This document shows positions 13,140 through 40,004 of a stretch of 64,000 bases of DNA, one piece after another (position 1 is the stretch's first letter; every line of letters begins with the position of its first letter). The position numbers and the translations under genes are program-made. Location of the stretch: contig SVPE01000004.1 in assembly GCA_015066015.1 (NCBI GenBank), forward strand, positions 1 to 64,000. Reading direction: 5' to 3'. The notes beneath the pieces are model-generated. The model was not told the origin of the DNA. It searched no databases and saw nothing but the letters and a program-made list of their open reading frames with translations. Source of the DNA: Oscillospiraceae bacterium. GTDB lineage: Bacteria; Bacillota; Clostridia; Oscillospirales; Acutalibacteraceae.

Positions 13140-14528
13140 ATGAGAAAGATAAGATTTTTTATAGCCTTATGGGCAGGTAAATTGCTCTTGTTTATATGGA
13201 AAAGAATCGGACGTGAAAGAGACGATAAGCCCGGTATGGCATCAATGCGTCTTTGTGAGGATTTTCTTGAACAGGTTGCAAAGCCGAAGCTTACAATTGC
13301 AGTAACAGGTACAAACGGGAAAACATCTATTTCTTCTATGGTTGCCGATATGCTCAGACGTCAGGGAATGACAGTATCTTATAACGATTGGGGCGCAAAT
13401 CATCACGCCGGTCAGGCAAGATGTATTCTTGATACGGTCAGTATCTTCAACAGACCAATAAAGGATGCGGCGGTTATTGAGTCCGATGAACTTATTTCAC
13501 CTATCAATATTCCGCGTATCAAGCCGCAGTACATAATAATCAATAACGTGGCCCGTGACTCAATGCTGCGTAATGCAAACCCTGAATACATTGCCGACAG
13601 ACTCTCAAAGGCTTGTGAAGGCTCAACAGATACCGTTGTAATCATAAATGCCGACGATCCTCTTTGCCGTTTTATCGGTGAGAAAAACCGCAAGGTTTAC
13701 TTCGGTGCAGAGGATCTCAGGACTAATCCTTTTGAGAATGTTGCAAAGGATTTTTCAGTTTGTCCCGTCTGCGGTGCACACGCTGAATATGTTTACAGAA
13801 ACTACCGTCACATCGGTAAATTCAGATGCACTGATTGCGGACTTACAACTCCCTGGAGAGATTATTTTGCCGAAAATGTTTCTGATGACGGCAAAACTTT
13901 TACGGTAAACGAGAAGTCAGGATCGTTTACTTATCCTCTCGTTTCACCCGCAGTGCATAATGTCTATAATGTTTGTGCGATAATTGCTCTTATGCGAGAC
14001 CTCGGCAATTCACCTGAGGAGATTGCAAAGCTCTTAGAGGAAACCCGCATTACAGAATTCCGTGAAACCCATCATGATGTAAACGGCTTGGAGGTTATTT
14101 GCCGCGTTGCAAAGGGACAGAATGCTACTGCTGCATCAACAGTTTTTGAGCAGGTATCAAAGGATCCGAGTACAAAAGAAGTAGTAATCATGCTTGATGA
14201 AATGTATTCAAACCCTAAGAAGCAGGAAACTGTTGCATGGATATACGATACAGATTACGAATTTCTTAACCGCGATAATATTAAGAGAATTGTTATCGGT
14301 GGTCTTCGTGAAAAAGATCATCTTTTAAGACTTCTTCTTGCAGGAGTGCCCCGTGAAAAAATCTTTTGCACATCCGATGTTAACAGAATTGCTGATATTG
14401 TAAGCGGTGAAAACGTAGATAAAATATATATCTTGCATGATGTTAACGCCGTTTCAAAGGGTCACAGTGTACGTGATTCAATCAAAGAAAAACTTATGAA
14501 GAAAGGGGAGGCAGTCAATGCGCATTGA
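13140..14528 (+). CDS. murT: MurT-like Mur ligase, 462 aa
   Basis: A Mur-ligase ATP-binding motif VTGTNGKTS (around residue 57) is intact, and a zinc ribbon with CPVCG and CTDCG (about residues 206-235) is characteristic of MurT. The C-terminal DUF1727-like domain is present. MurT with GatD amidates the D-Glu of lipid II in Gram-positives. Several usual MurT signatures look altered: the RDQLDR-type segment reads RDSMLRN, the AKNP-type segment reads AKGQNA, and the loop before SWxWDxDFE lacks its usual Asp-Gly. It overlaps the GatD-like gene by 11 bp, implying translational coupling. Probably a divergent subfamily; the product could differ. Confidence 0.75.
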   Translation: MRKIRFFIALWAGKLLLFIWKRIGRERDDKPGMASMRLCEDFLEQVAKPKLTIAVTGTNGKTSISSMVADMLRRQGMTVSYNDWGANHHAGQARCILDTVSIFNRPIKDAAVIESDELISPINIPRIKPQYIIINNVARDSMLRNANPEYIADRLSKACEGSTDTVVIINADDPLCRFIGEKNRKVYFGAEDLRTNPFENVAKDFSVCPVCGAHAEYVYRNYRHIGKFRCTDCGLTTPWRDYFAENVSDDGKTFTVNEKSGSFTYPLVSPAVHNVYNVCAIIALMRDLGNSPEEIAKLLEETRITEFRETHHDVNGLEVICRVAKGQNATAASTVFEQVSKDPSTKEVVIMLDEMYSNPKKQETVAWIYDTDYEFLNRDNIKRIVIGGLREKDHLLRLLLAGVPREKIFCTSDVNRIADIVSGENVDKIYILHDVNAVSKGHSVRDSIKEKLMKKGEAVNAH

Positions 14529-15237
14529 GGTTCTTTTCCCTGAATTCGGTAACTACTTCGGAGATTCGGGTAATATCCGTTATCTGCAGGCTTGTGCTCC
14601 CGAAGCAGAATTTATAATCACCGATAACCGTTCGGTGCCCTGCTTTGCAAACGAAGACGTTGATATGATATATATCGGTTCAATGTCTGAAAGAAAGCAG
14701 GAAATTGCCGTAAAGCGTTTGCTGCCTTACAAAGAGCGACTTCAGCAGCTGATTGAAAAGGGTGTTATTATTCTTGCAACGGGCAATGCAATGGAGCTTT
14801 TCGGTGAATGTATTAATGACGGTGGCGAAACTATTTCGATGCTCGGAATGTTCCCTTTCCACACAGACAGATATATTCAGGAAATCCGTCATAATTCGAT
14901 GTTTATCGGTAATTACAACGACATTAAAATTGTCGGATATAAGTCACAGTTTTCTTACTGCAGAGGAAATTTTGAAAATCCCTTTATTCAGGTTATCGGT
15001 GGCTGCGGTAACAATCCCGATGACAAAACCGAGGGAATCAATTATAAAAATTTCTTTGCAACCTATCTTTTAGGTCCCTTGCTTGTGCTTAATCCTCTCT
15101 TTGCCAAGCATCTGCTAAAGCTTATGGGGCATAGTGGTGAGCTTGCTTTTGAGAAAGAAGCAATGGCTGCTTATAATGAGCGTGTAGAGTGTCTCGAGGA
15201 TGAAGGTACTGTTTTCTGGATGGACGAAAATAGCTGA
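14518..15237 (+). CDS. gatD: GatD-like class I amidotransferase lacking Cys and His, 239 aa
   Basis: Clear GatD homologue: the N terminus has YFGDSGNIRYLQ, the C-terminal part has EGINYKNFFATYLLGPLL. Canonical GatD has TICGGYQFLG and TYLHGP; here these read ATGNAMELFG and TYLLGP, so the nucleophilic Cys is Gly89 (codon 14782-14784) and the catalytic His is Leu185 (codon 15070-15072). The glutamine-contact segment also differs. Length matches the family and there is no frameshift, so the protein seems retained as a non-hydrolysing subunit of its coupled MurT-like partner. Confidence 0.8.
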   Translation: MRIEVLFPEFGNYFGDSGNIRYLQACAPEAEFIITDNRSVPCFANEDVDMIYIGSMSERKQEIAVKRLLPYKERLQQLIEKGVIILATGNAMELFGECINDGGETISMLGMFPFHTDRYIQEIRHNSMFIGNYNDIKIVGYKSQFSYCRGNFENPFIQVIGGCGNNPDDKTEGINYKNFFATYLLGPLLVLNPLFAKHLLKLMGHSGELAFEKEAMAAYNERVECLEDEGTVFWMDENS

Positions 15238-15244
15238 TAAAATT

Positions 15245-15273
15245 AACCCCGGTTTCGCAATGAAATCGGGGTT
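15245..15273. terminator. bidirectional terminator between gatD and the aldose epimerase gene
   Basis: A 12-bp stem (AACCCCGGTTTC/GAAATCGGGGTT) with a 5-nt loop between two convergent genes; the T-tract is short on both strands. Confidence 0.65.
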
Positions 15274-15291
15274 TGATGTTTGTATTCGGTT

Positions 15292-16149
15292 TTATTCTGA
15301 AAAATCTGCACTCCAGGTGAAACTGAATTTTTCTTCGGACGCAAGGGTAACAATGCCTTCCTTTTGTGAAAAATCAACTCTTACATTCTGTTCGTCGTTT
15401 ACGCCGTTCCAGGGCTCTATGCACACATAGGGAGCACCGGGCTTTGCCCATATGCCGAGATAGGGTGCTTTGCCAAGGTCAAAAACGACTTTTCTTCTAA
15501 GTCCGTCACTTACAAGGGTGATTTTTTCAGATTTAACGCCCTTTGTGATAAGTGCATCTTCGTTGAAGACGTCTTTTGTGATAATGATTTCCTTTTCATT
15601 GTTCAGAAGAGGAAAGGTTTCGGGAAGTCTCAGTGAATGCTCAAGGTCAATTTTGATTTTCTCAAGAGTTTCATTTCTGTCGAAAATGAGCCTGTCACCG
15701 ATTTTACAGTTAAAGGCAGGATGTGCACCGAGAGAAAAATACATGTTGCCGTCGGTTTTGTTTATTACCTCGTGACTTACCGTGAGCTTGCTTTTGTCAA
15801 GTGAAAAAGTGACGATCAGCTCGAATCTGAACGGGTAGATTCTCAGAGTATCTTCCGTTTCGGTAAGAACGAGGCTTATGTTGCTGTCATTTTTCTTAAG
15901 AAGTTTCCAGGGCATTCTTCTTGCAAAACCGTGCTTCGGCATTTCATACTCACAGTTGCCGAGAGTATATCTGTCGTCAATAAGTCTTCCGATAATCGGA
16001 AAGAGAATAGGGGACTGTCCCGACCATATGTCAGGATTTCCCTGCCAGAGAAACTCACTTCCGGTTTCTTTTGATATAATGCTTGTTAGCTCACAACCGA
16101 ATTCTTTTATGCCGACTCTGAGAAAATCATTTTCAATATAATGTATCAT
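15292..16149 (-). CDS. aldose 1-epimerase family protein, 285 aa
   Basis: Galactose mutarotase-like fold. The expected active-site pieces are present: KHGFAR and GAHPAF with His residues, and CIEPWNG with the catalytic Glu. The start IENDFLRVGIKEFGCELTSI is typical of the LacX/YihR branch. It likely interconverts anomers of a hexose or sugar phosphate in the cytoplasm; the substrate is not specified. It follows luxS by 15 bp and is the last gene of a six-gene operon. Confidence 0.85.
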   Translation of the reverse strand: MIHYIENDFLRVGIKEFGCELTSIISKETGSEFLWQGNPDIWSGQSPILFPIIGRLIDDRYTLGNCEYEMPKHGFARRMPWKLLKKNDSNISLVLTETEDTLRIYPFRFELIVTFSLDKSKLTVSHEVINKTDGNMYFSLGAHPAFNCKIGDRLIFDRNETLEKIKIDLEHSLRLPETFPLLNNEKEIIITKDVFNEDALITKGVKSEKITLVSDGLRRKVVFDLGKAPYLGIWAKPGAPYVCIEPWNGVNDEQNVRVDFSQKEGIVTLASEEKFSFTWSADFSE

Positions 16150-16164
16150 TTTAATCTCCCTTTC

Positions 16165-16629
16165 TTATTTTGTGGGGTAGGCGAGCTTTTCGGCTGTCCA
16201 GTCTGTGAGTACATCACACATTGCGGCAGCTTCTTTTTTTGCTCCTTCAAGGTTGTGGTCGCGGTAATTTCCGCACTCCTCAGCTGAAACACCGGGAATT
16301 TCACCGTCAAAGTCTGCACAGAAGGCAAGTGCGGCTTTGGTAAGCTCAACAGCTTCGCTTGCAGATATCTCATCGGTAGTAATAAAGTAGAAGCCTGTTC
16401 TGCAGCCCATAGGCCCGAAATAAACGACCTTATCCTTGTGAACAGAATTTCTCACATAGGTTGCAAAAAGATGCTCAAGGGTGTGAATTGAGCCGTTTTC
16501 CATAACCTCTTCCACGTTGGGGCGTCTTGTACGGATGTCGTATGTTACAGTGTTTGCATCTGTCCTTGAAAGGTACATTCCTTTGGGTAAAATTGTGTGG
16601 TCAATTGTAAATGATGCTATTTTTTCCAT
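16165..16629 (-). CDS. luxS: S-ribosylhomocysteine lyase LuxS, 154 aa
   Basis: Cleaves S-ribosylhomocysteine to homocysteine and DPD, the autoinducer-2 precursor, within the activated methyl cycle. The metal ligands HTLEH (His49, His53) and the Cys in ECGNYRDH are present, as is catalytic Cys76 in GPMGCRTGFY. Length is normal. It sits directly after recG with a 14-bp gap; no pfs/mtnN is in the window. Confidence 0.97.
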   Translation of the reverse strand: MEKIASFTIDHTILPKGMYLSRTDANTVTYDIRTRRPNVEEVMENGSIHTLEHLFATYVRNSVHKDKVVYFGPMGCRTGFYFITTDEISASEAVELTKAALAFCADFDGEIPGVSAEECGNYRDHNLEGAKKEAAAMCDVLTDWTAEKLAYPTK

Positions 16630-16643
16630 GTTAAAAATCCTTT

Positions 16644-18680
16644 CTAATTGAGAGTCGAGCCTTTTTCGTTACTGAAGAGATTTTTTATCGCAACTTTGAG
16701 TCTGCGATTTTCTTCGAGCTTAAGCATAGGGTCTTTTCTGAGTATTTCTTCACTTGCCTGCTTGCTTTCGTGGACAATATCCATATTTTCTGTCAGGTCA
16801 GCAATTTTCAGCTTCGGGATACCTGACTGTCTTGACCCGAAGAAGTCACCGGGACCGCGCAACTCAAGGTCCTTGTCTGCAATTTTAAAGCCGTCGCAAG
16901 TGCGGCACATAATTTCAAACCGGGCTTTTGCGTTTTCGCCCTGATTATCGCTTATGAGTATGCAGTAGGATTTTTCCGAGCCTCTGCCGACACGGCCTCT
17001 GAGCTGATGAAGCTGCGACAGACCGAAGCGTTCAGCGTTTTCTATTACCATAATTACGCTTTCGGGCACATCGACACCGACCTCGATTACTGTAGTTGAA
17101 ACCAACAGCTGAATTTTACCCGATGCAAAATCAGCCATAACCTTTTCCTTTTCTTTTGGCTTCATTTTTCCGTGAAGAAGACCTACACTGTAGTTGTGAA
17201 AGTTTTTTTCGGTTAGCTTTTGCGCATATTGCTTTGCGGCGGTAAGCTCTCCGTCGTTTTCTTCAACCAGGGGACATACTATGTAGGCACGGAGGTTTCT
17301 TTCAAGGTGCTTTTTTATAAAGGCGTAAATTCTTTCCCGGTAGCTGGTGTCTACGGCATAGGTAGATATTTTCTGTCTGCCTTTGGGAAGCTCGTCGATA
17401 ACCGTAAGATCAAGATCACCGTAAATTATAAGCGAAATAGTACGCGGAATAGGGGTTGCGCTCATTACAAGAGTGTGCGGGTTGATGCCTTTTCCGTTGA
17501 GTAAGCCTCTTTGTCTTACACCGAACCGGTGCTGCTCATCGGTGATAACAAGCCCTAACTTATCAAAGTCCACGTCGTCGCTTATCAGAGCGTGAGTCCC
17601 GACAATTACTTTTGTTTCGCCGTTTTTTAGCTTTTCCTTTATTTCCTTTTTCTTTTTTGCAGTAAGTGACCCGGTAAGCAGATCAACTGTAATATCTGTG
17701 CTTTCAAAAAGCTTTGTCAGTGTGCTGAAGTGCTGACGTGCAAGTATGTCTGTCGGTGCCATAAAGGCACTTTGTATACCGTTTTTCGCGGCATTATAAA
17801 TAACTGCTGCAGCGACAACTGTTTTACCGCTGCCGACATCACCCTGAACGAGGCGGTTCATTGGCGTGTTTTTCTTTGTATCCTTTATGCAGTCGGCGAT
17901 TGCATTTTTCTGAGCATTTGTAAGCGTAAAGGGAAGCGTGGAGATGAAATCTTCAGAACAGTCTTTGTCAAAAGTAAAGCTTGTATACCCGCGGTTTCGT
18001 CTTTTGAGAATTTTCATACCTGTCTGCAGGGTGAGAAGCTCTTCAAAAATAAATCTTTTCCTTGCAATTTCAAGGTCGTGCGGAGATGCCGGACTGTGAA
18101 TCGATTTTAATGCAAAGCTTTCGTGACACAGACTGTACTTGCGGCGCAGCTCATCGGGGATGACGTCTGACATTGAATCGTTGATGTAAATTCCGAGGGC
18201 ATTATCAATGATTTTTGATATTATCTTATTACTCAGTCCGGCAGTGAGGGGATAAATGGGCTGCATAGCTTTTACTGCATCAGGATTTTCAATAATGGGA
18301 TTTGTGATTTCAAATGAGCCTCTGTTTAAAGTTATCTTGCCGTAAAAGAGATATTCCTCACCCTCAACGAGACCTTCGGCAGCATAAGCACTGTTAAAAA
18401 TATTAAGGTTAACAGAATATTCACCGTCGATAAGCAGAGTTTTATATATTGTCAGTCCGCGGCGTATTTCGTTTTTTACGGGAGTGTATCCGACAGTTGC
18501 TTTGAAGCAGCAGACCTCCTCGGGAATAAAATCCTTTATTTCTGTCAGATTCGAGAAATCAAGATACGAGCGGGGAAAATAATGTACCAGGTCATCAAGG
18601 CTGAAGATGCCGAGCTTATTAAGAAGCTGAGCTCTTTTTTCGCCTACCCCTTTGATGTATTTCAGGGGAGTAACTGTCAT
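16644..18680 (-). CDS. recG: ATP-dependent DNA helicase RecG, 678 aa
   Basis: Remodels stalled replication forks and branched DNA. An N-terminal wedge/OB domain is followed by the two helicase domains: Walker A GDVGSGKT, Walker B-type DEQH, motif III SATPIPRT, and the C-terminal QLRGRVGRG with a TRG-like tail. Length is normal for Firmicutes. Located between an ABC solute-binding gene and luxS with short gaps, so co-transcribed with them. Confidence 0.96.
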   Translation of the reverse strand: MTVTPLKYIKGVGEKRAQLLNKLGIFSLDDLVHYFPRSYLDFSNLTEIKDFIPEEVCCFKATVGYTPVKNEIRRGLTIYKTLLIDGEYSVNLNIFNSAYAAEGLVEGEEYLFYGKITLNRGSFEITNPIIENPDAVKAMQPIYPLTAGLSNKIISKIIDNALGIYINDSMSDVIPDELRRKYSLCHESFALKSIHSPASPHDLEIARKRFIFEELLTLQTGMKILKRRNRGYTSFTFDKDCSEDFISTLPFTLTNAQKNAIADCIKDTKKNTPMNRLVQGDVGSGKTVVAAAVIYNAAKNGIQSAFMAPTDILARQHFSTLTKLFESTDITVDLLTGSLTAKKKKEIKEKLKNGETKVIVGTHALISDDVDFDKLGLVITDEQHRFGVRQRGLLNGKGINPHTLVMSATPIPRTISLIIYGDLDLTVIDELPKGRQKISTYAVDTSYRERIYAFIKKHLERNLRAYIVCPLVEENDGELTAAKQYAQKLTEKNFHNYSVGLLHGKMKPKEKEKVMADFASGKIQLLVSTTVIEVGVDVPESVIMVIENAERFGLSQLHQLRGRVGRGSEKSYCILISDNQGENAKARFEIMCRTCDGFKIADKDLELRGPGDFFGSRQSGIPKLKIADLTENMDIVHESKQASEEILRKDPMLKLEENRRLKVAIKNLFSNEKGSTLN

Positions 18681-18712
18681 TTTTTCACCGCCTTCGTAAA
18701 TTTGAGTTTAAA

Positions 18713-20239
18713 TTATGATTCTGATTTCCAGGAGTTTATATTGTAAAACGGCTCGTTGACGTTTGCTGAGCCTTCGTAGGTTATGTCGTTTGAGTAGTAA
18801 GCAACATAGGTTCTGTAGCAAATAGGGATAAAGGGCTTTTCTTCTTCGAAAACACTTATGAATGTGTTAACATCTATGTTTCCTGTTTTAAGGTCGTTAT
18901 AGGCACTTGCAACGGCTTTTGAGGAAATACCGTATGAAGCTGCGCCTGTGCTTTTGAAGAATGCAGATAAATCCATATTCGGTGAGATTTTCACCTCACC
19001 TATATAAAGGTCGTAGCTGCCGTCCTTGAGCGCCTGCTGATAATCTTCAAAGGCGAGCGCGGAGAGGGAAACCTTTATACCGAGATTCTGAAGGTTTTTA
19101 CCGATGAATTTAGCACAGTTTACTTTAGTTGTGCTTTCTTTGTTGACGAGAATTTTGATTTCAAAATATCCGTCGGTATCATATCTGAAGGTTTTGTCCT
19201 TAGGCGAAAAAATAATTCCGCATTCATCAAGAATATTGCCTGCGTTGATGAGATTGTATTCGTGTGTGGGCAGGGGAAGACCTTCGAGTGCAAACCAATC
19301 GGGATTGAAGGGGGTTTCAGTAAGTGTACAGAAATTGTCGAATACCGTATCGGCAAGAGTACTTTTGTCTATTGCGGTTGAGAGGGCTTTGATTACATTT
19401 TTGTTGTTGAATACTTCATTTTTACTGTTATAGCCAAGATAAATGAGGTTGTTTGTAGAAAGGGGCAGGGTTGTAGCGTTGAGCTTTGTAAAAACGCCGC
19501 TATCCATATCGTCACAGAAGTAACTGAGGTGACCTGCCTGAATGCGGTAAATTTCATCATTCTCGGCATCAATTGCAGTAAGACCGAGAATAGGCGTGGA
19601 AAGTGCTTCTTTGCGTGTGGATGTGGGATTTTCCGAAAGCACATACTCACCGTTTATGCTTCTGAGTACATAGCGACCGCTACCTATGGGTAAAGCGGCA
19701 TCACCGGTACCGTTTTGTATTATCGGGAAGGTGAGACACTGCTGAACATAAACGTCCGGACTGTTGAGGGCAAATGTGACTGTGTCCACACCGGCAACTG
19801 CAGTGGCAAGGTTGGAAAGTCTGCCCTTGAAATGCGGACTTTTTTTTGCAAGGTTAAAGGAATAAACAACATCATATGCTGTAAGGGAAGCTCCGTTCGA
19901 GAAAACCTCACCGTCAACGATTTTTACAGTTACCTGCTTGCCGTCGTTCTGTATCTCCTTTGCGAGAAGCATATCTGATGACCAGTCGTCATTGATAATA
20001 AAAAGAGGATCATAAAGGAGGGTGGAAATGTTCAGATTTGTGAAGCTGTCGGTTTTATAGGGATTAAAGGATTTTTTATCAAAATAACCGAGATAAACGC
20101 TTCGGACAGGAGTTTCATCAGTATTTGTGGAGGAAACCTCCGGTTCTGTTGTTACATTTTCACTGTTTATATTTATTGCAACAACAATGGCTGCAGTAAG
20201 AAGAGAAATGCATAAAATCGCAATAATAATTTTTTTCAT
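18713..20239 (-). CDS. ABC transporter substrate-binding protein, family 5 (peptide/nickel type), 508 aa
   Basis: An N-terminal hydrophobic segment (KKIIIAILCISLLTAAIVVA) gives export or membrane anchoring; no convincing lipobox follows it. The body has the SBP_bac_5 features: FTNLNISTLLYDPLF near the N terminus, the VVYSFNLAKKSP motif, and the paired-lobe length. It lacks adjacent permease or ATPase genes, so it is an orphan binding protein that must pair with a transporter encoded elsewhere or serve as a sensor. Ligand unknown. Confidence 0.85.
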   Translation of the reverse strand: MKKIIIAILCISLLTAAIVVAININSENVTTEPEVSSTNTDETPVRSVYLGYFDKKSFNPYKTDSFTNLNISTLLYDPLFIINDDWSSDMLLAKEIQNDGKQVTVKIVDGEVFSNGASLTAYDVVYSFNLAKKSPHFKGRLSNLATAVAGVDTVTFALNSPDVYVQQCLTFPIIQNGTGDAALPIGSGRYVLRSINGEYVLSENPTSTRKEALSTPILGLTAIDAENDEIYRIQAGHLSYFCDDMDSGVFTKLNATTLPLSTNNLIYLGYNSKNEVFNNKNVIKALSTAIDKSTLADTVFDNFCTLTETPFNPDWFALEGLPLPTHEYNLINAGNILDECGIIFSPKDKTFRYDTDGYFEIKILVNKESTTKVNCAKFIGKNLQNLGIKVSLSALAFEDYQQALKDGSYDLYIGEVKISPNMDLSAFFKSTGAASYGISSKAVASAYNDLKTGNIDVNTFISVFEEEKPFIPICYRTYVAYYSNDITYEGSANVNEPFYNINSWKSES

Positions 20240-20252
20240 AAAAATTCACCTG

Positions 20253-21026
20253 TTATTCGAAGGATACAAGTTCTGTACCGGTGCATTTGCCGGTTGCTTT
20301 GTCAATTGTAAAAATACAGCCGTTTATCATAGCTGAACCCTGAGCCTTGTCAAATCGCTGAGGCATATTAAAACGGAATTTTTCGATAATGATATCCTTG
20401 TCAACGCCAAGCACACTGTTTTTTACACCGCACATACCAATGTCTGTTATATATCCTGTACCTCCGGGTAAAACAGTATTATCAGCAGTGAGAACGTGAG
20501 TGTGAGTGCCGAATACGGCTGAAACTCTTCCGTCAAGGTAAAAGCCCATAGCCTTTTTTTCGCTTGTTGCTTCTGCATGTAAATCAACGAGAATAATGTT
20601 TGTGTTGCCTTTGAGCCTGTTTAATTCGTCGTCTACGGCGTCAAAGGGGTTTCTGAGGCTTTCCATAAACATTGTACCCATAACATTTATGATACCCACA
20701 CTGAAAAAACCGCAGTCGACAATTTTTGAGCCGACACCGGGGTTGCTGTCTGAATAGTTGCAGGGCCTTATAATGAATTCACTTTCATCAAGCAGCGAGA
20801 AGACCTCTTTTCTGCGGTAAACGTGATTACCGGTTGTAATAAAGTCAACACCTGAGGCAAAAAGCTGCTTAGCGGAATCGGGGGTTATTCCGTTACCGTC
20901 AGCAGAATTTTCACCGTTTGCTATGCAGAAGTCTATAGCCTTAAGCTTTTTGAATGCGGGAAGCTTCTTTTTCAGAAAGCTGCAGCCCTCGCTGTTTACT
21001 ACATCGCCTAAAACAAGAATGTTCAT
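20253..21026 (-). CDS. ymdB: YmdB-like metallophosphoesterase (TIGR00282 family), 257 aa
   Basis: Metal-dependent phosphodiesterase related to Bacillus YmdB, which hydrolyses cyclic nucleotides and affects biofilm and motility decisions (family knowledge). Motifs in order: LGDVVNSEG, IANGENSADGNGIT, TTGNHVYRRKEV, VDLHAEATSEKKA and GTHTHVLTADN. All metal-ligand positions appear intact, and length is typical. It overlaps none of its neighbours but sits 13-15 bp from both, inside the six-gene operon. Confidence 0.92.
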   Translation of the reverse strand: MNILVLGDVVNSEGCSFLKKKLPAFKKLKAIDFCIANGENSADGNGITPDSAKQLFASGVDFITTGNHVYRRKEVFSLLDESEFIIRPCNYSDSNPGVGSKIVDCGFFSVGIINVMGTMFMESLRNPFDAVDDELNRLKGNTNIILVDLHAEATSEKKAMGFYLDGRVSAVFGTHTHVLTADNTVLPGGTGYITDIGMCGVKNSVLGVDKDIIIEKFRFNMPQRFDKAQGSAMINGCIFTIDKATGKCTGTELVSFE

Positions 21027-21041
21027 ATATGTCTCCCGTTA

Positions 21042-21743: not shown

Positions 21744-21774
21744 TGATAATCACCTTAGATAATATATTCATATT

Positions 21775-21803
21775 ATTATATAATAAAAAGGTATAAATTT
21801 CAA
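21775..21803 (-). promoter_or_regulatory. sigma-A promoter of the phosphatase-ymdB-recG-luxS operon
   Basis: On the minus strand: TTGAAA (21798-21803), 17 nt, TATAAT (21775-21780); the first start codon is at 21743. Divergent from the asnS promoter. Confidence 0.75.
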
Positions 21804-24612: not shown

Positions 24613-24619
24613 AATAATC

Positions 24620-32886: not shown

Positions 32887-32890
32887 TATA

Positions 32891-32924
32891 AAAAGGCTTA
32901 CGGTTATCTGACCGTGAGCCTTTT
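32891..32924 (+). terminator. strong terminator overlapping the sfsA leader
   Basis: A 14-bp stem (AAAAGGCTTACGGT/ACCGTGAGCCTTTT) with loop TATCTG and terminal Ts. Its 3' edge is only 13 bp before the sfsA start codon, so sfsA depends on readthrough or an unseen promoter. Confidence 0.85.
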
Positions 32925-32937
32925 TGAAAGGGAAAAG

Positions 32938-33618
32938 ATGAAATATAACAACATAATAAAAGGACGATTCATCAAGCGACTGAACCGTTTTGTAGCTCTT
33001 TGTGAGATTGAGGGTGAAGAGGTTTACTGCCACGTAAAAAATACGGGAAGATGCGGTGAGATACTTGTTCCCGATGCAGAGTGCTACCTTGAAAAATCAG
33101 ACAATCCAAACAGAAAATATACATATTCGCTTGTTGTTGTGCGTAAAGGTGAAAGACTGATAAATATAGATTCCCAAGCACCCAATAAGGCGGCAGCTGA
33201 GTTTCTTTCAGGCGGCGGAATCGGTATGGAACTTTATAATCTGAAGGCAGAAAAAACCTTCGGCAAATCAAGATTCGATTTTTACTTTGAGCATAATGGT
33301 AAAGAAGCTTTTCTTGAGGTGAAGGGTGTAACCCTTGAGAATGACGGTGTTGTTTCATTTCCCGATGCCCCTACAGAAAGGGGAACGAAGCATCTTAATG
33401 AGCTTTCTGACTGTGTGAAAAAAGGTTATGAGGCATATGTGCTTTTTGTCGTACAGATGAAAGGAGTGTCTCATTTTTCTCCTAACAGTATTACTGACCC
33501 TGATTTTGCCGAAGCTTTGAAAAGAGCACAGGAATCAGGCGTGCATATTTTTGCATATGACTGCTTTGTAAGCGAAACTGAAATGATAATAAAAGACAGT
33601 GTTCCGGTCATACTTTGA
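32938..33618 (+). CDS. sfsA: SfsA family DNA/RNA-binding nuclease, 226 aa
   Basis: SfsA (sugar fermentation stimulation protein) family. GRFIKRLNRFVALCEIEG, HVKNTGRCGEIL and SRFDFYF...FLEVKGVTLE match the conserved order, the last being the nuclease-like core. The start is ATG 32938 behind AAAGGG; an in-frame ATG at 32914 would fall inside the terminator stem. The stop codon lies in the loop of the next terminator. Function in Gram-positives is poorly defined. Confidence 0.93.
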   Translation: MKYNNIIKGRFIKRLNRFVALCEIEGEEVYCHVKNTGRCGEILVPDAECYLEKSDNPNRKYTYSLVVVRKGERLINIDSQAPNKAAAEFLSGGGIGMELYNLKAEKTFGKSRFDFYFEHNGKEAFLEVKGVTLENDGVVSFPDAPTERGTKHLNELSDCVKKGYEAYVLFVVQMKGVSHFSPNSITDPDFAEALKRAQESGVHIFAYDCFVSETEMIIKDSVPVIL

Positions 33619-33635
33619 GTATGATCGGATTTTTT
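33604..33635 (+). terminator. terminator overlapping the sfsA stop codon
   Basis: A 10-bp stem (CCGGTCATAC/GTATGATCGG, one G-T pair) holds TTTGA, which contains the stop codon, in its loop; then A and seven T. Confidence 0.85.
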
Positions 33636-33667
33636 TGCTGTTGATTGTTAATTTGTAATAAAAATTG

Positions 33668-33696
33668 TTGCCAAACGGTGAATTTTATGATATTAT
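33668..33696 (+). promoter_or_regulatory. sigma-A promoter of the GDPD-like/serine hydrolase/YhhN operon
   Basis: TTGCCA (33668-33673), 17 nt, TATTAT (33691-33696); start codon 39 bp later. Confidence 0.7.
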
Positions 33697-33735
33697 ATAA
33701 TATATTTAAAATCAGATATCCGAAAGGTTTATATA

Positions 33736-34971
33736 ATGAATCCAATTAAAAAAATCATATCTTTTACTTTAAGTTTAATTTTGATTGTTTCTTTTATAAG
33801 CTTTAATGTCGGTGCATTATTTGACAAAGAGAATGCGACCGAAAAATTTTACAGCTACGAAACGAAGCTTCTTTGCATTTCGCACAGAGGAGACACCGCT
33901 TTATATCCTGAAAATTCTCTCGAGGGAATTAAATCCGCATTGAAAAAGGGTGCTGATTTTGTTTCTGTTAATATTGAAAAAACTGCTGACGGCGTTTTTT
34001 ATCTGTGTGAGGATGAATCTCTCGGAAACATATGCAACGCCCCTTATGACAGCCTTTCGCAGATGAATTCCGACGAGGTTGACAAATACCGTCTTTTTGA
34101 TATTTTCGGTAAAGAAACGAAATATAAATTGGTTTCACTTGAAAGCCTGCTTGACCGCACTGACAGCGAGGACGGTATAATTCTCGATGTAAAAACAGCC
34201 GACAAGGATGCGGTTTACGGGATTCTCAAAGAAAACAAATCTCTTGACCGTATTATCCTCAGAGTGGTTGAAAGCGGCTCAAAGCTTACTGAATGGGCGG
34301 AAAGTAAGCCTGAAAAGGTTTATGTTATCGGTAAATACACAGGCAACATTATTTTCAGCACTGTTTCGTATATCAATGCGTTGACTTCAGCCAAAATGCC
34401 TGCCGTACAGTTTGAAAGCAAGAATTATTTCAATGTTTCTTTCGGTGAGTTTTTTACAAAGAGATACCTCAAGAGCGAAAATGTACGTGCAATTGCAGCA
34501 ACCTATTCTCCGGACCTTTGTGGACAGAGAGAGGACAATGCTGACGGATGGAATGAGCTTATAAATAAAAATTATTCTGTTATTGAAACGAATAATATTG
34601 ATTCTTTTATTTCGTACAGAAACGAAACGGAAAGACTCAGTGATGATTTACGTGAGCTTTACGATGGCGCTTCTCTGATGGAGAGAGACAGATACTCTCA
34701 GGTTAGTCTTACCAACTTAGATAAGGCAACTGCTCTGTGTGAAGAGGTTATTTCTGATGATGTTGTTTCATTGGCCGAGCTTCAGAAGGCTTATTCTAAG
34801 CTTGATTTTGCACTTAAGGAAATGAAAATATCCACAGGTGAGGTTGACACAAGAGGCGCTCTCAACATAACCGCAGGTAAGGTTATAGCTGCGGTGCTTG
34901 TCGGTGCTGCGCTTCTTGCAGGACAGATATATGTATATAAAATGCGAAGGAGTAAAAAGGAGAATAAGTAA
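33736..34971 (+). CDS. membrane-anchored degenerate GDPD-like protein, 411 aa
   Basis: An N-terminal signal/anchor (residues ~5-28) and a C-terminal membrane segment (VIAAVLVGAALLAGQIYVY) followed by a basic tail suggest a surface-tethered protein. The GDPD start is kept (SHRGD with His50/Arg51, PEN with Glu59), but the metal pair Glu-x-Asp reads Ser77-Val-Asn79 and the second catalytic His reads Glu92 (compare IEMDV and IIHDED in the intact copy at 27626). Before the C-terminal helix is a FIVAR-like helical stretch. Probably a non-catalytic ligand-binding relative. It heads an operon with a serine hydrolase 32 bp downstream. Confidence 0.75.
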   Translation: MNPIKKIISFTLSLILIVSFISFNVGALFDKENATEKFYSYETKLLCISHRGDTALYPENSLEGIKSALKKGADFVSVNIEKTADGVFYLCEDESLGNICNAPYDSLSQMNSDEVDKYRLFDIFGKETKYKLVSLESLLDRTDSEDGIILDVKTADKDAVYGILKENKSLDRIILRVVESGSKLTEWAESKPEKVYVIGKYTGNIIFSTVSYINALTSAKMPAVQFESKNYFNVSFGEFFTKRYLKSENVRAIAATYSPDLCGQREDNADGWNELINKNYSVIETNNIDSFISYRNETERLSDDLRELYDGASLMERDRYSQVSLTNLDKATALCEEVISDDVVSLAELQKAYSKLDFALKEMKISTGEVDTRGALNITAGKVIAAVLVGAALLAGQIYVYKMRRSKKENK

Positions 34972-35003
34972 CGCATTAAAAATAAATAAAGGAGATTATA
35001 CTT

Positions 35004-36599
35004 ATGAAAACACATGAAAAAACAGCATGGCTTGAAAGAGCAAAAACACCCGAAGAGGTAGGCGTTTCCTCAAAAGAAGTAAAAGCATTTGTTGACCATT
35101 GTACGGAGCTTGGCAAAGAGCTTCATTCGTTCATTATTATCCGTCACGGTAAAATAGCCTGTGAGGCATATAAGGCTCCTTTAGGCCCTGAGCACAAGCA
35201 TATGATGTATTCGGTAAGTAAGTCCTTTACATCTACTGCAATCGGCTTTGCAGTGAATGAAGGATACTTCACCGTTGATACAAGAGTTGTTGATATTTTT
35301 CCTGAGCTTCGCAAGGAGAATAAGCCTGACGAATATCTTGAGGAATTAACAGTTGAAGATCTTCTTACAATGCGCGGCGGCAAGGAAGTAAGTGTTTTCC
35401 TTGACAGAACAAAGGATACCTGGCTTGAGGACATTATGAACTCACGCTGGATTTATGAGCCCGGCACAGAATTCCTTTACATAAGCGAAAATATGTATGT
35501 TCTTTGTGCAATCATTCATAAGCTTTGCGGAATGAGCGTTATGGAGTATCTCAAGCCCCGTCTCTTTGAGCCTCTCGGAATTGAGAATCCCTTCTGGGAA
35601 ACCTGCCCCAAGGGTATTGAAACCGGTGGTTGGGGTCTTATGATAAAGACAGAAGATCTCGCTAAGTATATATATTGCTATCAGCAGGGCGGTAAATTCG
35701 GCGGTAAACAGGTTATCCCTGAAGACTGGGTAAAGGAATCGGTGCGTTTCCACGCAGACACCACAGTCAACAACAATGACTCTGACTGTAAGGTCGGTTA
35801 CGGATATTGCTTCTGGAGAAACGCCGGATACGAAAACAGTTACCGTGCAGACGGAATGTTCTCTCAGTTCGGTATTGTATTTGAGGATCTTGACGCTTGC
35901 TTTATTTCTACAGGCGGTGAGATTAATGAACAGGGCATGCGTGATGTTATCTGGGAGCATTTCCCCAAGGCGTTCCTTGAAGAAAACACAGGTGAAACAG
36001 TTGAAATCAGCATCCCTTCCTATGAAGGTTTGCCCGAAAAGAGTCGCTCGGCTCTTGAGCAGAGGCTCGACGGTAAGAGTATGAAGCTTTCTAAGCCTAT
36101 TGCAGTTAATATTGCAGGTTATCCTACAAGTGTTGTTCCTCTTCCCGCACTCTTTATGGAGAGCGATAAGGCAGGTAACATCAGTGACCTCAGCTTCAGA
36201 TTCTATGACAAGCATTGTGTTATGACCTGGACAGAGGGCGACGAAATCAACAGTGTTGAAATCGGACTTGACGGTGAGTACCGTTGGGATGATATTGTGA
36301 TTGGTAAGATTCCCTATCACACCTGCTCTGTCGGATGCTGGAACACAGACAGTGAATTCGAAGTTCACATCCGTTGCATAGAGGTTGTTGCAGAGAGAAT
36401 TCTTACCTTCAAATTCAACGGCGACAACGTTGTAATGAGACCCTCATCAAATCCGCCTGTCGGTGTTATGGCAGAAACACTTAAAGAGACCGTCAAGAGT
36501 GTTATCAAGCAGCCTCTGGTTCAGACTGCAGTTACAAAAGCGCTTCCTAAGCTTGTGCCTCTTATTGATGCAGTTCAGCGTGGTAAGATCAAGGATTGA
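35004..36599 (+). CDS. beta-lactamase-fold serine hydrolase, 531 aa
   Basis: Class C beta-lactamase/penicillin-binding/esterase family. The SxxK motif is in YSVSKSF, and FLYISENMYVL supplies the second-motif Tyr. After the ~330-residue catalytic domain is an extra beta-rich domain (to ~490) and a helical end. No signal peptide is seen, so it is probably cytoplasmic or peripheral. The substrate could be an ester or D-amino-acid peptide. It lies between a GDPD-like gene and a YhhN-family gene. Confidence 0.85.
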   Translation: MKTHEKTAWLERAKTPEEVGVSSKEVKAFVDHCTELGKELHSFIIIRHGKIACEAYKAPLGPEHKHMMYSVSKSFTSTAIGFAVNEGYFTVDTRVVDIFPELRKENKPDEYLEELTVEDLLTMRGGKEVSVFLDRTKDTWLEDIMNSRWIYEPGTEFLYISENMYVLCAIIHKLCGMSVMEYLKPRLFEPLGIENPFWETCPKGIETGGWGLMIKTEDLAKYIYCYQQGGKFGGKQVIPEDWVKESVRFHADTTVNNNDSDCKVGYGYCFWRNAGYENSYRADGMFSQFGIVFEDLDACFISTGGEINEQGMRDVIWEHFPKAFLEENTGETVEISIPSYEGLPEKSRSALEQRLDGKSMKLSKPIAVNIAGYPTSVVPLPALFMESDKAGNISDLSFRFYDKHCVMTWTEGDEINSVEIGLDGEYRWDDIVIGKIPYHTCSVGCWNTDSEFEVHIRCIEVVAERILTFKFNGDNVVMRPSSNPPVGVMAETLKETVKSVIKQPLVQTAVTKALPKLVPLIDAVQRGKIKD

Positions 36600-36629
36600 T
36601 TGTAATTACTACATCGGAGGGTAATGTTT

Positions 36630-37376
36630 ATGTTTTTTAAAATCCTGTTTGGACTTTCAATTTTTGCGGAATTTTTTACAGTTCCGGTTTTCCTTAAGTA
36701 TTATTGGCCGAAAAAGTGTAAGCAGTCGCTACTTTTCAAGATGATTTCTGCAACCTTATTTGTTATTTGTGGTTACAGTGCCATGAAGGTTGCCGTCAAT
36801 AACACAACCTATGCATCTCTTATGTTGATCGGCTTCGTGTTCGGCTGGTTCGGTGATTTACTGCTTCACAGTCTCAAAGACAAGATGTTACATTTTGCAC
36901 TGGGAGTTGTTTCTTTCCTTGTGGGTCACATCTTCTTTATTGCTGCTTTCCATCATGCAATCAAAACGCTCAATCCGGAGGCATCACTTTTTGCTTGGTA
37001 TGAAATCGTAAGTGTAGTTGTCATAATCACAGCAGTTGTCATTTTCGGTATATTCAAAAAGTACTATCAGAAAAAAGGACCGCTTGTTTTTGCACTTCTT
37101 GCATACGGTGTCTTCCTTGTAACAATGTTCGTTAAGGCAATGGTTTACTGCGGCACTGAATGGATGTACGGTATCAATGATTATATGTACCCTGCAATCA
37201 TTACCTCGGGTCTCGGTGCACTTTTCTTCCTTCTTTCTGACGGATCACTCGGACTCATCCTTATGGGTGATGAAACGAAGAGGGGAATGCGAATTTTCAA
37301 TATCGTTACATATTTCATTGCACAGATTCTTCTTGCAGTAAGTATTCTCTTTATCAGATCACAGATTATGTTTTAA
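36630..37376 (+). CDS. YhhN/TMEM86 family (lysoplasmalogenase-like) membrane protein, 248 aa
   Basis: About eight membrane segments with the conserved GFVFGWFGDLLL and FLVGHIFFIAAF blocks of the YhhN family, whose characterised members hydrolyse the vinyl-ether bond of lysoplasmalogens. ATG 36630 is preferred because it is 8 nt from GGAGGG; the ATG at 36624 is only 2 nt away. Last gene before the terminator at 37386. Plasmalogens occur in anaerobic Clostridia, so the role is plausible but inferred. Confidence 0.8.
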   Translation: MFFKILFGLSIFAEFFTVPVFLKYYWPKKCKQSLLFKMISATLFVICGYSAMKVAVNNTTYASLMLIGFVFGWFGDLLLHSLKDKMLHFALGVVSFLVGHIFFIAAFHHAIKTLNPEASLFAWYEIVSVVVIITAVVIFGIFKKYYQKKGPLVFALLAYGVFLVTMFVKAMVYCGTEWMYGINDYMYPAIITSGLGALFFLLSDGSLGLILMGDETKRGMRIFNIVTYFIAQILLAVSILFIRSQIMF

Positions 37377-37385
37377 ATAACAGTA

Positions 37386-37417
37386 ACAGCCGTCGGTTTA
37401 TCCGACGGCTGTGATTT
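37386..37417 (+). terminator. terminator of the GDPD-like/YhhN operon
   Basis: A perfect 11-bp stem (ACAGCCGTCGG/CCGACGGCTGT) with loop TTTAT, then GA and five T. Confidence 0.9.
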
Positions 37418-37445
37418 TTCAGTAACGGATGTAAGTATCACTGAA

Positions 37446-37483
37446 AAAAAGCCACCTTTATCCGTAGATAAAAGTGACTTTTT
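37446..37483 (-). terminator. terminator of tRNA-Leu on the minus strand
   Basis: On the minus strand AAAAAGTCACTTTTATC pairs fully with GATAAAGGTGGCTTTTT (two G-U pairs); on the plus strand the same positions are C-A mismatches, so it is oriented to the tRNA transcript, whose 3' end is 2 bp away. Confidence 0.8.
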
Positions 37484-37485
37484 CT

Positions 37486-37572
37486 TGGTGCCGGTGGCGG
37501 GGGTCGAACCCGCACGGTATCGCTACCAACGGATTTTGAGTCCGCCTCGTCTGCCAATTCCAACACACCGGC
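37486..37572 (-). tRNA. tRNA-Leu(CAA)
   Basis: 87 nt including an encoded CCA. Acceptor GCCGGTG pairs with CACCGGC, discriminator A; the anticodon loop CTCAAAA gives anticodon CAA (codon UUG). A long variable arm and T-arm GCGGGTTCGACCCCCGC complete the class II form of tRNA-Leu. A terminator follows directly on the minus strand. Confidence 0.97.
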
Positions 37573-37670
37573 ACATCTGCTTTGAAAATTATATAATATA
37601 TCGTTTATCTTGTCAAGGAAAATAAATAAAAACAACAAATAAAAGTAAGCTATTTTCTCATAAAAATGCC

Positions 37671-37699
37671 TTGACAACACCACATCCTTGTGTTATACT
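37671..37699 (+). promoter_or_regulatory. sigma-A promoter of a short transcript upstream of argF
   Basis: TTGACA (37671-37676), 17 nt, TATACT (37694-37699). A terminator at 37818 would give a transcript of roughly 140 nt. Confidence 0.75.
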
Positions 37700-37735
37700 A
37701 TCGCAGATAAAAACAGCAAAGGAAGGTAAAGGAAA

Positions 37736-37825
37736 ATGTGCATTTCAGTTTTTAAGAGCGAAAAAGTTTCTTCTCCTTCTTGCTTTTGCTTTTGTGACCT
37801 TTCAGATTTTTATTTTTACGGGTAA
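37736..37825 (+). CDS. possible leader peptide, 29 aa, Cys/Phe-rich
   Basis: ATG 37736 follows an A/G-rich stretch (GGTAAAGGAAA) that could act as a ribosome site. The frame ends in TAA inside the 5' arm of the following terminator. The peptide carries SCFCFC and DFYFYG and no Arg, so it is not an obvious arginine attenuator. It may be a leader peptide, a small protein, or chance coding within a small RNA. Confidence 0.3.
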   Translation: MCISVFKSEKVSSPSCFCFCDLSDFYFYG

Positions 37826-37849
37826 CGCTTTTGTTGCCCGTTATTTTTT
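37818..37849 (+). terminator. terminator/attenuator upstream of argF
   Basis: A 9-bp stem (ACGGGTAAC/GTTGCCCGT, one G-T pair), 6-nt loop, then TA and seven T. It separates the 37671 promoter from the argF promoter at 37883. Confidence 0.8.
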
Positions 37850-37882
37850 TGCATTTTATCCTGAATATTTATACAAAAAATC

Positions 37883-37911
37883 TTTACAATCTGTAGACAA
37901 AAGTGTATAAT
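37883..37911 (+). promoter_or_regulatory. sigma-A promoter of argF
   Basis: TTTACA (37883-37888), 17 nt, TATAAT (37906-37911) with TG directly upstream. The argF ATG is about 49 bp further. Confidence 0.75.
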
Positions 37912-37959
37912 AATAGGATGAAAAATATGTCCTTAACGGACGGAAAGAAGGATCAAACA

Positions 37960-38865
37960 ATGAAACACTTACTTAAACTTCTCGACTGGTCAGCGGAAGA
38001 GATTAAAGATACACTTGACCTTGCCGATAAGCTCAAGGCGGAGAAAAAGGCGGGCATTCCGCACCGCATTCTTGAAGGTAAAACCCTCGGTATGATTTTC
38101 CTTAAATCTTCAACAAGAACACGCGTTTCTTTCGAGGTAGGTATGTATGACCTTGGCGGTACACCTCTTTTCCTTTCATCAAAGGATCTTCAGATAGGCA
38201 GAGGCGAGCCCGTTCAGGATACCGCAAGAGTTCTTTCACGCTTTATCGACGGTATTATGATCAGAACCTTTGATCAGCAGGAGGTTGAGGATCTTGCAAA
38301 GTACGGGTCAATCCCCATCATCAACGGTCTTACAGACTTCTGCCATCCCTGTCAGGTTCTTGCCGACCTTCAGACTATCCGTGAATATAAGGGCGAGCTC
38401 GAAGGCCTCAAGCTCTGCTACATAGGCGACGGCAACAATATGGCAAACAGCCTTATTGTTGGCTGCGTAAAGATGGGTATGAAGGTTGCTATTGCCTGCC
38501 CCAAGGGTTACGAGCCCGACGAAGGTGTAGTGGAATGGGCAAAGGAAAACGGCGATCTTCTTATCACCGAGGATATTATGGAAGCCTGCAAGGGTGCCGA
38601 TGTTCTTTATACTGACGTATGGGCATCAATGGGTCAGGAAAGTGAAGCCAAGAAGAGACAGAGAATCTTCAAGGATTATCAGATTAATCAGGCTGCAGTT
38701 GATGCATCAAACGAGGACGTAATGGTGCTCCACTGCTTACCTGCTCACAGAGGTGAGGAGATTACCGAGGAAGTTCTTGAAGCTCATGCAAATCAGATCT
38801 TCGACGAGGCTGAAAACAGACTTCACGCTCAGAAGGCAGTTCTTGTAAAGTGCTTCACTGAATAA
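37960..38865 (+). CDS. argF: ornithine carbamoyltransferase, 301 aa
   Basis: Makes citrulline from ornithine and carbamoyl phosphate. Carbamoyl-phosphate motif SSTRTR, then HPCQVLADL and the ornithine-side HCLPAHRG are intact. The start is ATG 37960 after AAGGAT; in-frame ATGs upstream fall in or near the promoter. Followed by carA and carB, which supply its carbamoyl phosphate, so the cluster is arginine-oriented. Confidence 0.95.
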   Translation: MKHLLKLLDWSAEEIKDTLDLADKLKAEKKAGIPHRILEGKTLGMIFLKSSTRTRVSFEVGMYDLGGTPLFLSSKDLQIGRGEPVQDTARVLSRFIDGIMIRTFDQQEVEDLAKYGSIPIINGLTDFCHPCQVLADLQTIREYKGELEGLKLCYIGDGNNMANSLIVGCVKMGMKVAIACPKGYEPDEGVVEWAKENGDLLITEDIMEACKGADVLYTDVWASMGQESEAKKRQRIFKDYQINQAAVDASNEDVMVLHCLPAHRGEEITEEVLEAHANQIFDEAENRLHAQKAVLVKCFTE

Positions 38866-38919
38866 GAGAAGCAGATATTTATGTTAAAAATCCCATTTAT
38901 AATACAAAGGAAAGGAAGC

Positions 38920-38938
38920 TTCACGGTTTTACCGTGAA
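38920..38938 (+). other. hairpin before the carA ribosome site
   Basis: A perfect 8-bp stem (TTCACGGT/ACCGTGAA) with loop TTT sits 13 bp before the carA start and next to AAGGTGA. It may tune carA translation; no T-run follows. Confidence 0.45.
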
Positions 38939-38951
38939 CAAGGTGAACTAA

Positions 38952-40004
38952 ATGAAAAAGCGTTATTTGGTTCTGCAGGACGGCACTGTTTTCGAAGGTT
39001 ATGCCTTCGGTGCTGATAAGGAAAGCATCGGTGAGCTGATTTTTACAACAGGTATGGTCGGTTACATCGAAACACTTACCGATCCCTGCTATTACGGACA
39101 GATTGTTATGCAGACATTCCCTATGGTAGGCAACTACGGCATTATTGAATCAGATTTTGTCGGCGAGCCTCATCTTAAGGGCTATGTTGTAAGAGAGTAT
39201 TGTAAGGCTCCTTCAAACTTCCGATGTGAATACGACCTTGATACCTTCCTTAAGAATAACGGAATTCCCGGCCTTTACGGAATCGACACCCGTGAGGTAA
39301 CAAACATTATCAGAGACAAGGGAATTATGAATGCAATAATCTGTGACGAAATTCCCGCCTCTCTTGAGGATGTTGTTTCTTTCAGAATAGTTGATGCTCT
39401 TAAAAACACCTGCGCAAAGGAAAAGAGTGAGTATATTCCCGAGGGAGAAGCAAGGAAGCATATCGCAATTCTTGATCTTGGCTCAAGCAAGTACCTTGAG
39501 CAGAGCCTTCTTGAAAAGGGCTATAAGGTTACACTTCTTCCGCATACCGCTTCAGCTGATGAAATTCTTTCACTCGGAGCTGATGGCCTTGTGCTTACAG
39601 AGGGTGCTGGCGACCCGAGAGAGAATGAAAGTGTTATTGCGACTGTTGCGGTGCTCTTCGGTAAGATTCCGATGCTCGGACTCGGACTCGGTCATCAGAT
39701 TATGGCTCTCGCCAAGGGCGGTAAGATCGAAAAACTTACTTACGGTCATCACGGCGCAAATCAGCCCTCGAAGATTGTCGGCTCAGCAAGAACACTTATC
39801 ACAAATCAGAATCACAACTATGTTGTGGTTGCGGATACGGTAAAGGATGCCGTTGTAACTCACATAAATATGAACGACGGTACAATTGAAGGTCTTGCTT
39901 ATGAAAAGGAATATGCCTTCTCGCTTCAGTTTGAGCCTTCCGACGATGTAATTACAGAAAAATTTGTAAAAGAAATGGAGGAGTTCGCAAATGCCGTTAA
40001 ATAA
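38952..40004 (+). CDS. carA: carbamoyl-phosphate synthase small subunit, glutaminase triad lost, 350 aa
   Basis: Normal-length CarA. The N-terminal domain (LVLQDGTVFEGYAFG, GMVGYIETLTDPCYYGQI) and scaffold motifs of the amidotransferase domain (LTEGAGDP, GHQIMALA, GHHGANQP, NQNHNYVV) are recognisable. The nucleophile elbow, normally FGICLGHQ, reads LGLGLGHQ: Gly245 (codon 39684-39686) replaces Cys. The usual HPEA reads EPSD: Glu328 and Ser330 replace catalytic His and Glu. The subunit should not hydrolyse glutamine; it may be a structural partner for an ammonia-dependent CarB. Its end overlaps carB by 14 bp. Confidence 0.93.
   Translation: MKKRYLVLQDGTVFEGYAFGADKESIGELIFTTGMVGYIETLTDPCYYGQIVMQTFPMVGNYGIIESDFVGEPHLKGYVVREYCKAPSNFRCEYDLDTFLKNNGIPGLYGIDTREVTNIIRDKGIMNAIICDEIPASLEDVVSFRIVDALKNTCAKEKSEYIPEGEARKHIAILDLGSSKYLEQSLLEKGYKVTLLPHTASADEILSLGADGLVLTEGAGDPRENESVIATVAVLFGKIPMLGLGLGHQIMALAKGGKIEKLTYGHHGANQPSKIVGSARTLITNQNHNYVVVADTVKDAVVTHINMNDGTIEGLAYEKEYAFSLQFEPSDDVITEKFVKEMEEFANAVK

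Follow-up and report, generated by a model that had tools for sequence, protein, structure and literature searches.

The carA and gatD-like genes of the window

The DNA studied here (the window) is a stretch of 64,000 nucleotides from an Oscillospiraceae bacterium of the order Oscillospirales (assembly GCA_015066015.1, contig SVPE01000004.1, positions 1 to 64,000 of the forward strand). It carries a carA gene, which encodes the small subunit of carbamoyl phosphate synthetase (CPS), and a pair of murT-like and gatD-like genes. A previous sequence-only reading had proposed that CarA and the GatD-like protein, two unrelated glutamine amidotransferases, have both lost the catalytic Cys (to Gly) and the catalytic His, and our motif alignments agreed with this. 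The features are collected in Table 1.

Table 1. Features discussed in the text, with positions in the window unless a different frame of reference is given
Feature	Position	Strand	Basis
murT-like, Mur ligase partnering the GatD-like protein	13140..14528	+	Pfam Mur_ligase_M, MurT_C
gatD-like, without catalytic Cys and His	14518..15237	+	Pfam GATase_3; alignment
Gly89 codon, place of S. aureus GatD Cys94	14782..14784	+	alignment
Leu185 codon, place of S. aureus GatD His189	15070..15072	+	alignment
argF-like carbamoyltransferase, directly upstream of carA	37903..38865	+	Pfam OTCace, OTCace_N
carA, CPS small subunit with dead glutaminase site	38952..40004	+	Pfam CPSase_sm_chain + GATase; motif reading
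Gly245 codon, place of catalytic Cys (E. coli Cys269)	39684..39686	+	alignments
Glu328-Pro329-Ser330 codons, place of E. coli His353-Pro-Glu355	39933..39941	+	alignments
carB-dapF in-frame fusion; CPS large subunit ~residues 1-1048, then diaminopimelate epimerase domain	39991..44025	+	TIGR01369, TIGR00652
GuaA without glutaminase domain	window's contig, ~155600-156600 (G000:C11; locus L186, 736-1782)

We observed that the carA frame was open, with the limits read before, and that its product of 350 residues contained both Pfam domains of the family (CPSase_sm_chain, 163.9 bits; GATase, 99.0 bits). When CarA was aligned with 24 relatives and E. coli CarA, the nucleophile elbow GICLGHQ of the intact relatives was found to read GLGLGHQ, and QFHPE to read QFEPS. 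In place of the Cys-His(-Glu) residues of a glutamine-hydrolysing CPS small subunit, the protein has Gly245, Glu328 and Ser330. The loop right after QFEPS was 7-8 residues shorter than in the intact relatives. It falls at the place of E. coli Gly359, which lines the ammonia tunnel, and its shortening might possibly open this tunnel.

The window CarA resembles other bacterial CarA proteins in its domains, in having a CarB partner, and in its scores, which were above the curated cut-offs of both 'glutamine-hydrolyzing' models (TIGR01368 and NF009475). However, glutamine hydrolysis, as the name of TIGR01368 implies, is not expected from a protein that lacks the Cys and the His. The carB frame is separate from carA, although its start overlaps the carA end, and CarB scored 1393.5 bits with TIGR01369 (curated cut-off, 1027). 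Judged by this family score, CarB looks intact. At the gene level the pair is therefore like the animal enzyme CPS1 (discussed below) in having a glutaminase domain without its nucleophile and the synthetase present. A single carA match was found in the window genome (2.38 Mb, 91% complete).

The gatD-like frame was also open as previously delimited, with a product of 239 residues. The motif ICGGYQ, seen in four intact homologues and in S. aureus GatD, reads TGNAME here, and TYLHGP/TYSHGP of the same proteins reads TYLLGP. In S. aureus, the GatD mutants C94A and H189A showed no glutaminase activity (PMC5871853). The adjoining murT-like gene, the GATase_3 domain and the equivalent of S. aureus Arg128 (kept in nearly all GatD-like sequences) recall the MurT/GatD lipid II isoglutaminyl synthase. 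Unlike GatD, the window protein lacks the equivalents of Cys94 and His189, and it was below the equivalog cut-offs (81.5 versus 450 bits, and 77.6 versus 400 bits). The synthetase partners had both been described as intact. This held for CarB by its score, while the MurT-like protein has the Mur_ligase_M and MurT_C domains (MurT_C, 79.9 bits) but fell below the MurT equivalog cut-off (144.6 versus 800 bits). The genome has a single gatD-like match.

Recurrence of Cys-less CarA in the order

We examined CarA in samples of the genus (34 genomes), the family (60 genomes) and the order (147 genomes, at least 90% complete), with a few genomes shared between the samples. At NCBI, near relatives are filed under names such as Oscillospiraceae, Ruminococcaceae or Clostridia bacterium. 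Full-length CarA was scored, partial matches being mostly outside the counts, and 3 of the 249 extracted sequences were too short for scoring. All figures for the order are among the matches listed, with at least 124 genomes having some CarA match.

In the genus, 26 genomes had a scored CarA: 12 with only the form lacking the Cys (Cys-less CarA), one with both forms, and 13 with only the Cys form. The corresponding numbers were 4, 5 and 33 in the family (42 scored genomes), and 24, 14 and 77 in the order (115 scored genomes), so that 38 genomes of the order sample carry a Cys-less CarA. The residue at the Cys place in the 143 order sequences listed was Cys in 98, Gly in 34, Asp in 6, Ser in 3, and Ala and Arg in one each. 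The His was retained in 98/98 of the Cys-bearing and in 4/45 of the Cys-less proteins. Pooling the samples without named duplicates gave 213 sequences, 147 with the Cys (146 of them also with the His) and 66 without, and a carB gene lay downstream on the same strand at 145/147 and 60/66 of these loci, respectively. The 66 Cys-less sequences cluster on the tree, and the loss of the Cys is thus not a matter of chance. The window CarA belongs to a clade of 13 genus genomes in which Gly stands at the Cys place in 13/13, the His is lost in 13/13 and the Glu in 12/13. Separately, we noted six divergent Cys-less CarA-like proteins (loci L396-L401, in G156, G092, G218, G129, G179 and G209), with no carB within 211-259 bases of downstream sequence and, by eye, a PyrF-like tail upstream.

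The main CarA tree was built with the motif columns excluded, from 174 sequences (thinned of near copies from the 206 that met the length and carB criteria). The Cys/Cys-less label changed 18 times on this tree, with at least 7 of the changes forced by starred branches. A FastTree tree of all 213 rows gave 13 changes, and a tree of 82 closer sequences, among which were 7 named records, gave 6 changes, 4 of them forced. In the latter tree the 13 Cys-less CarA sequences of the genus formed one group (SH-aLRT 100). The best explanation of these trees is that Cys-less CarA is common to one clade of the genus and arose several times independently in the order.

Gly was the replacing residue in 11 of the 18 Cys-less groups (13 if two mixed groups are included), while single-base changes of equal probability would give 1 in 7 (binomial 6e-6 and 4e-8, respectively, under a null that ignores mutation bias). 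The S. aureus GatD study reports a disallowed backbone conformation at Cys94, and says that this resembles CPS (PMC5871853). As a strained nucleophile turn would be relieved by Gly, we take the repeated change of Cys to Gly as structural convergence and not as shared history, and infer a structural reason for the preference.

We also estimated the selection on the gene. In the window's clade, dN/dS was 0.04-0.19 in 15 pairs of more than 70% identity (many of the dS values being near or above 1, those above it saturated; a 16th pair gave no dS estimate), and 0.083 for the pair closest to the window CarA. Among the intact members of the genus it was 0.09-0.26. The low values indicate that CarA of this clade is no pseudogene. 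The mean identity of the N-terminal domain was similar in the window's clade and in the intact relatives (0.76 versus 0.75), while that of the glutaminase domain was looser in the clade (0.62 versus 0.75). Purifying selection therefore acts on CarA of the window's clade, and is relaxed in the glutaminase domain. A sequencing or binning artefact, or a gene in decay, might be suggested by the draft state of the genomes; but the same state in 13 genomes of the genus, the open frames and the low dN/dS make this extremely unlikely.

Two further positions, equivalent to Ser47 and Asn240 of the E. coli glutamine pocket, behaved similarly. Ser was present in 144/147 of the Cys-bearing but only 12/66 of the Cys-less proteins, and Asn in 145/147 and 8/66, respectively. 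By these counts the whole glutamine pocket is relaxed. We also considered whether the clade could have acquired a new nucleophile, for example Cys46 in place of the usual Ser of the pocket. A Cys is indeed found at position 46 in 9/13 clade members, as against 1/147 Cys-bearing CarA proteins. However, three members have Thr there and one has Ser, and the His and Glu are gone as described above, so that a new nucleophile is highly improbable.

Other amidotransferases and neighbouring genes

The losses in CarA and GatD had been taken together as signs of one process, in which the whole lineage, living in ammonia, has relaxed its class I glutaminases. The proposed mapping of the losses on a phylogeny gave different pictures for the two proteins, with CarA recurrent and clade-shared, and GatD showing one change not linked to it. 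The GatD-like set had 20 sequences (18 from the family search and two more from the genus), and in its tree one supported branch separated 4 Cys-bearing from 16 Cys-less sequences, across genera. One change sufficed in 100% of 200 bootstrap trees (one sequence, L079, being a very long row). A murT-like match was present at 19/20 loci, and the 20th (L066) starts at a contig end. The GatD-like loss thus looks old, and the Cys-less MurT/GatD-like pairs look like a separate, older family. From their motifs, these GatD-like members should not hydrolyse glutamine, and the MurT of such a pair would either use ammonia or have another job.

Cys-less GatD was not linked to Cys-less CarA. Among the 13 family-sample genomes with Cys-less GatD, CarA was Cys-bearing in 7 (one of which also had a Cys-less copy), only Cys-less in 3 and not scored in 3, and the two genus additions had no scored CarA. 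GatD matches in the 34 genus genomes were confined to the window genome, G071 and G082, with none in the 12 other genus genomes that have Cys-less CarA. In view of these differing distributions we rejected a shared cause for the two losses; their presence in one window is most likely a coincidence.

When we examined the remaining amidotransferases, some were intact and others were truncated or not found. A PF00117 search of the window genome returned only CarA and HisH, with no TrpG-like match. HisH keeps both GICLGMQ and QFHPE, and both motifs were kept in all 8 loci read (the window genome and 7 from its PyrG-less sisters). PurL has GICNGFQ and GHSER, and all 30 genus loci read (31 matches) contained the Cys elbow as well as GHxE. 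GuaA, however, is a 348-residue frame whose match to the GMP synthase model NF000848 begins at position 189 of 512; it has the synthetase and C-terminal domains but no PF00117 match, and hence no glutaminase domain. Its synthetase part is complete (TIGR00884, 443.5 bits). In one other genome (G003), a full and a short GuaA lie side by side. PyrG (PF06418) was not found in the window genome.

GuaA therefore shows the expected decay, and the searches returned neither PyrG nor TrpG, but HisH and PurL do not decay in this way. The findings named beforehand as fatal to the idea (intact sites in all the others, or intact second copies of carA and gatD) were made only in part, since GuaA is truncated and there is one carA and one gatD-like match. 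The window genome is thus not ammonia-only. Genome-wide relaxation is refuted by the intact HisH (8/8) and PurL (30/30), and the GatD loss is a single change on its tree, with no GatD match in the 12 other genus genomes that have Cys-less CarA. Taken as a whole, we consider this explanation unlikely.

The absence of PyrG nevertheless went along with that of the CarA Cys. In the genus, PyrG was matched in 0/13 genomes with Cys-less CarA and in 13/13 with only the Cys form, and full-length GuaA in 0/13 and 11/13; as the 13 genomes form one clade, this link amounts to about one event. Short GuaA was present in 8 of these 13 genomes, and G063, G065, G070, G073 and G075 had no GuaA match. In the family sample PyrG was unmatched in 4/4 genomes whose CarA is only of the Cys-less form, each of a different genus, as against 1/38 with a Cys CarA (Fisher, 4e-5), which favours a lineage-wide process. 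In one of the four (G006), a frame of 515 residues that matches CarA weakly could be a full GuaA. PyrG was also unmatched in 13/18 family genomes without full-length CarA. Its loss is thus not specific to ammonia, and may follow nucleotide scavenging instead. A further point against is G083, in which a Cys-less CarA occurs together with fragments resembling PyrG and the glutaminase part of GuaA, located at contig ends or close to them; the PyrG-like fragment shares its contig with an intact second CarA. This genome is either an exception or contaminated. G060 has one extra PF00117 match, of 263 residues.

A loss of PyrG through loss of the whole pyrimidine route was set aside, since PyrF (PF00215), the one step searched, was above the cut-off in 11/13 of the Cys-less-CarA genus genomes, so that this step towards UMP at least is retained there. 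It was not above the cut-off in G078, and in the window genome the match was weak and below it. Across the genus, the CTP synthase family PF06418 was unmatched in 18/34 genomes, G060, G064, G067, G071, G072 and G074 among them; six of the 18 reach a completeness of at least 95%, and PyrF was above the cut-off in 16/18. An ammonia-first nucleotide syndrome tied to Cys-less CarA is a live idea on these gene contents. In its fullest form, CPS and GMP synthetase would have shed their glutaminases in an ammonia-run nucleotide and arginine economy, while the classical CTP synthase, which uses glutamine, would be gone in spite of the PyrF found in most clade members, and CTP would come from an unrecognised ammonia-using enzyme or from uptake; this we regard as doubtful.

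As for the neighbouring genes, the DapF domain fused to CarB scored 285.8 bits with TIGR00652. The same fusion was present in 24/24 complete carB frames among 33 loci of named relatives, Treponema-like records included, and we found no description of it in a search of the open-licence literature. At the place of the first catalytic Cys of DapF, 22 frames have Ala and 2 have Gly (this motif being present in 24 of the 26 dapF frames), and 22/26 contained the second Cys motif. Elsewhere in the window (6753-11237) a protein of 1494 residues is encoded that looks secreted and contains many nearly identical repeats with Cys.

A probable ammonia-dependent carbamoyl phosphate synthetase

Together, these observations are quite likely to be explained by a CarA that is kept as a pseudo-glutaminase in an ammonia-dependent CPS, and that has appeared repeatedly in the order, with the GatD-like pair a separate matter. 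We infer that CarA would still partner CarB and help the synthetase to keep its working form. Lacking the triad it could not split glutamine, and CarAB would make carbamoyl phosphate from free ammonia, here beside argF. CarA would stay as a scaffold, and perhaps as an ammonia entrance. Gly may be the residue best tolerated in the strained turn once catalysis is no longer selected.

Several points weigh against this. According to a review (PMC6245113), bacterial CPS works with glutamine, and the E. coli enzyme can use ammonia only at very high concentrations that are probably irrelevant. Ammonia use must therefore have improved, or ammonia must be plentiful. Long branches meet on the CarA tree, which leaves the number of changes uncertain (7 to 18), and the counts carry no direction; that the changes were losses is likely because the Cys form is the general state of CarA. 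No carB was present within the fetched flank at 6/66 Cys-less loci, certain Cys-less proteins are very divergent, and the genomes sampled are drafts. Among the matches listed, 14 of the 38 order genomes with Cys-less CarA also hold a Cys-bearing copy, and there the Cys-less one may do something else.

The latter genomes (14/115) would also fit a Cys-less CarA that is only structural or regulatory, with CarB being supplied with nitrogen by a different glutaminase or by a second CarA. But 24/115 genomes of the same set have only the Cys-less form, and the PF00117 matches of the window genome are those of CarA and HisH alone, which makes this alternative quite improbable.

We also evaluated an arginine-only CPS, as CPS1 is, and rejected it because the loss was not confined to arginine operons. 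The ArgF tail HCLP[AG][HY] lies upstream of carA in 13/13 of the window's clade. Such a tail was directly upstream at 19/66 Cys-less and 12/145 Cys-bearing loci with enough sequence, and within loci longer than 3 kb an ArgF match was found in 15/16 and 31/61, respectively, the window's clade making up 13 of the 19 and 12 of the 16. Read by eye for motifs, many of the other Cys-less loci have upstream tails that resemble PyrF, PyrC or PyrB.

The idea that ammonia in the rumen or colon lies behind the change is plausible, and the environment may be its cause. Body-site words were available for 15 of the 32 scored loci of named relatives (the 17 without one being excluded). The 9 Cys-less loci were all hindgut, with no rumen, while the 6 intact ones were 2 hindgut and 4 rumen (p 0.011). 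As the relatives were chosen for their similarity to the window CarA, and the window's clade supplies five of the 9 loci, the hindgut link is a lead and not a test, giving the idea thin support.

The closest parallel is CPS1, the animal enzyme of the urea cycle, which in humans is ammonia-specific and has Ser for the Cys (PMC4655335). As in the window, a CarA-derived domain without the catalytic Cys has been kept in animal CPS1 with an intact synthetase (same source). The animal enzyme is, however, a single long polypeptide, activated by N-acetylglutamate, with a change of Cys to Ser, whereas the window system has separate CarA and CarB, and the changes, mostly to Gly, recur within one bacterial order. 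GuaA has a parallel in two-subunit GMP synthetases, which occur in archaea: like these, it has a complete synthetase part and no glutaminase domain of its own. Unlike in those systems, no separate glutaminase subunit was found among the PF00117 matches of the window genome. A search of the open-licence literature returned no description of Cys-less bacterial CarA, or of this pattern.

The review cited above treats glutamine as the nitrogen donor that every bacterial CPS prefers and uses physiologically (PMC6245113). This generalization stands against the 38/115 order genomes, among the matches listed, that carry a CarA without the residue required for it. Curated models label Cys-less CarA and glutaminase-free GuaA as 'glutamine-hydrolyzing' above their cut-offs, a naming error from which annotation-based metabolic models would assign the wrong nitrogen donor. 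If confirmed, the system would show in natural replicates how an amidotransferase comes to depend on ammonia, in parallel with the rise of CPS1. It suggests that these gut bacteria may feed free ammonia into the synthesis of arginine and nucleotides.

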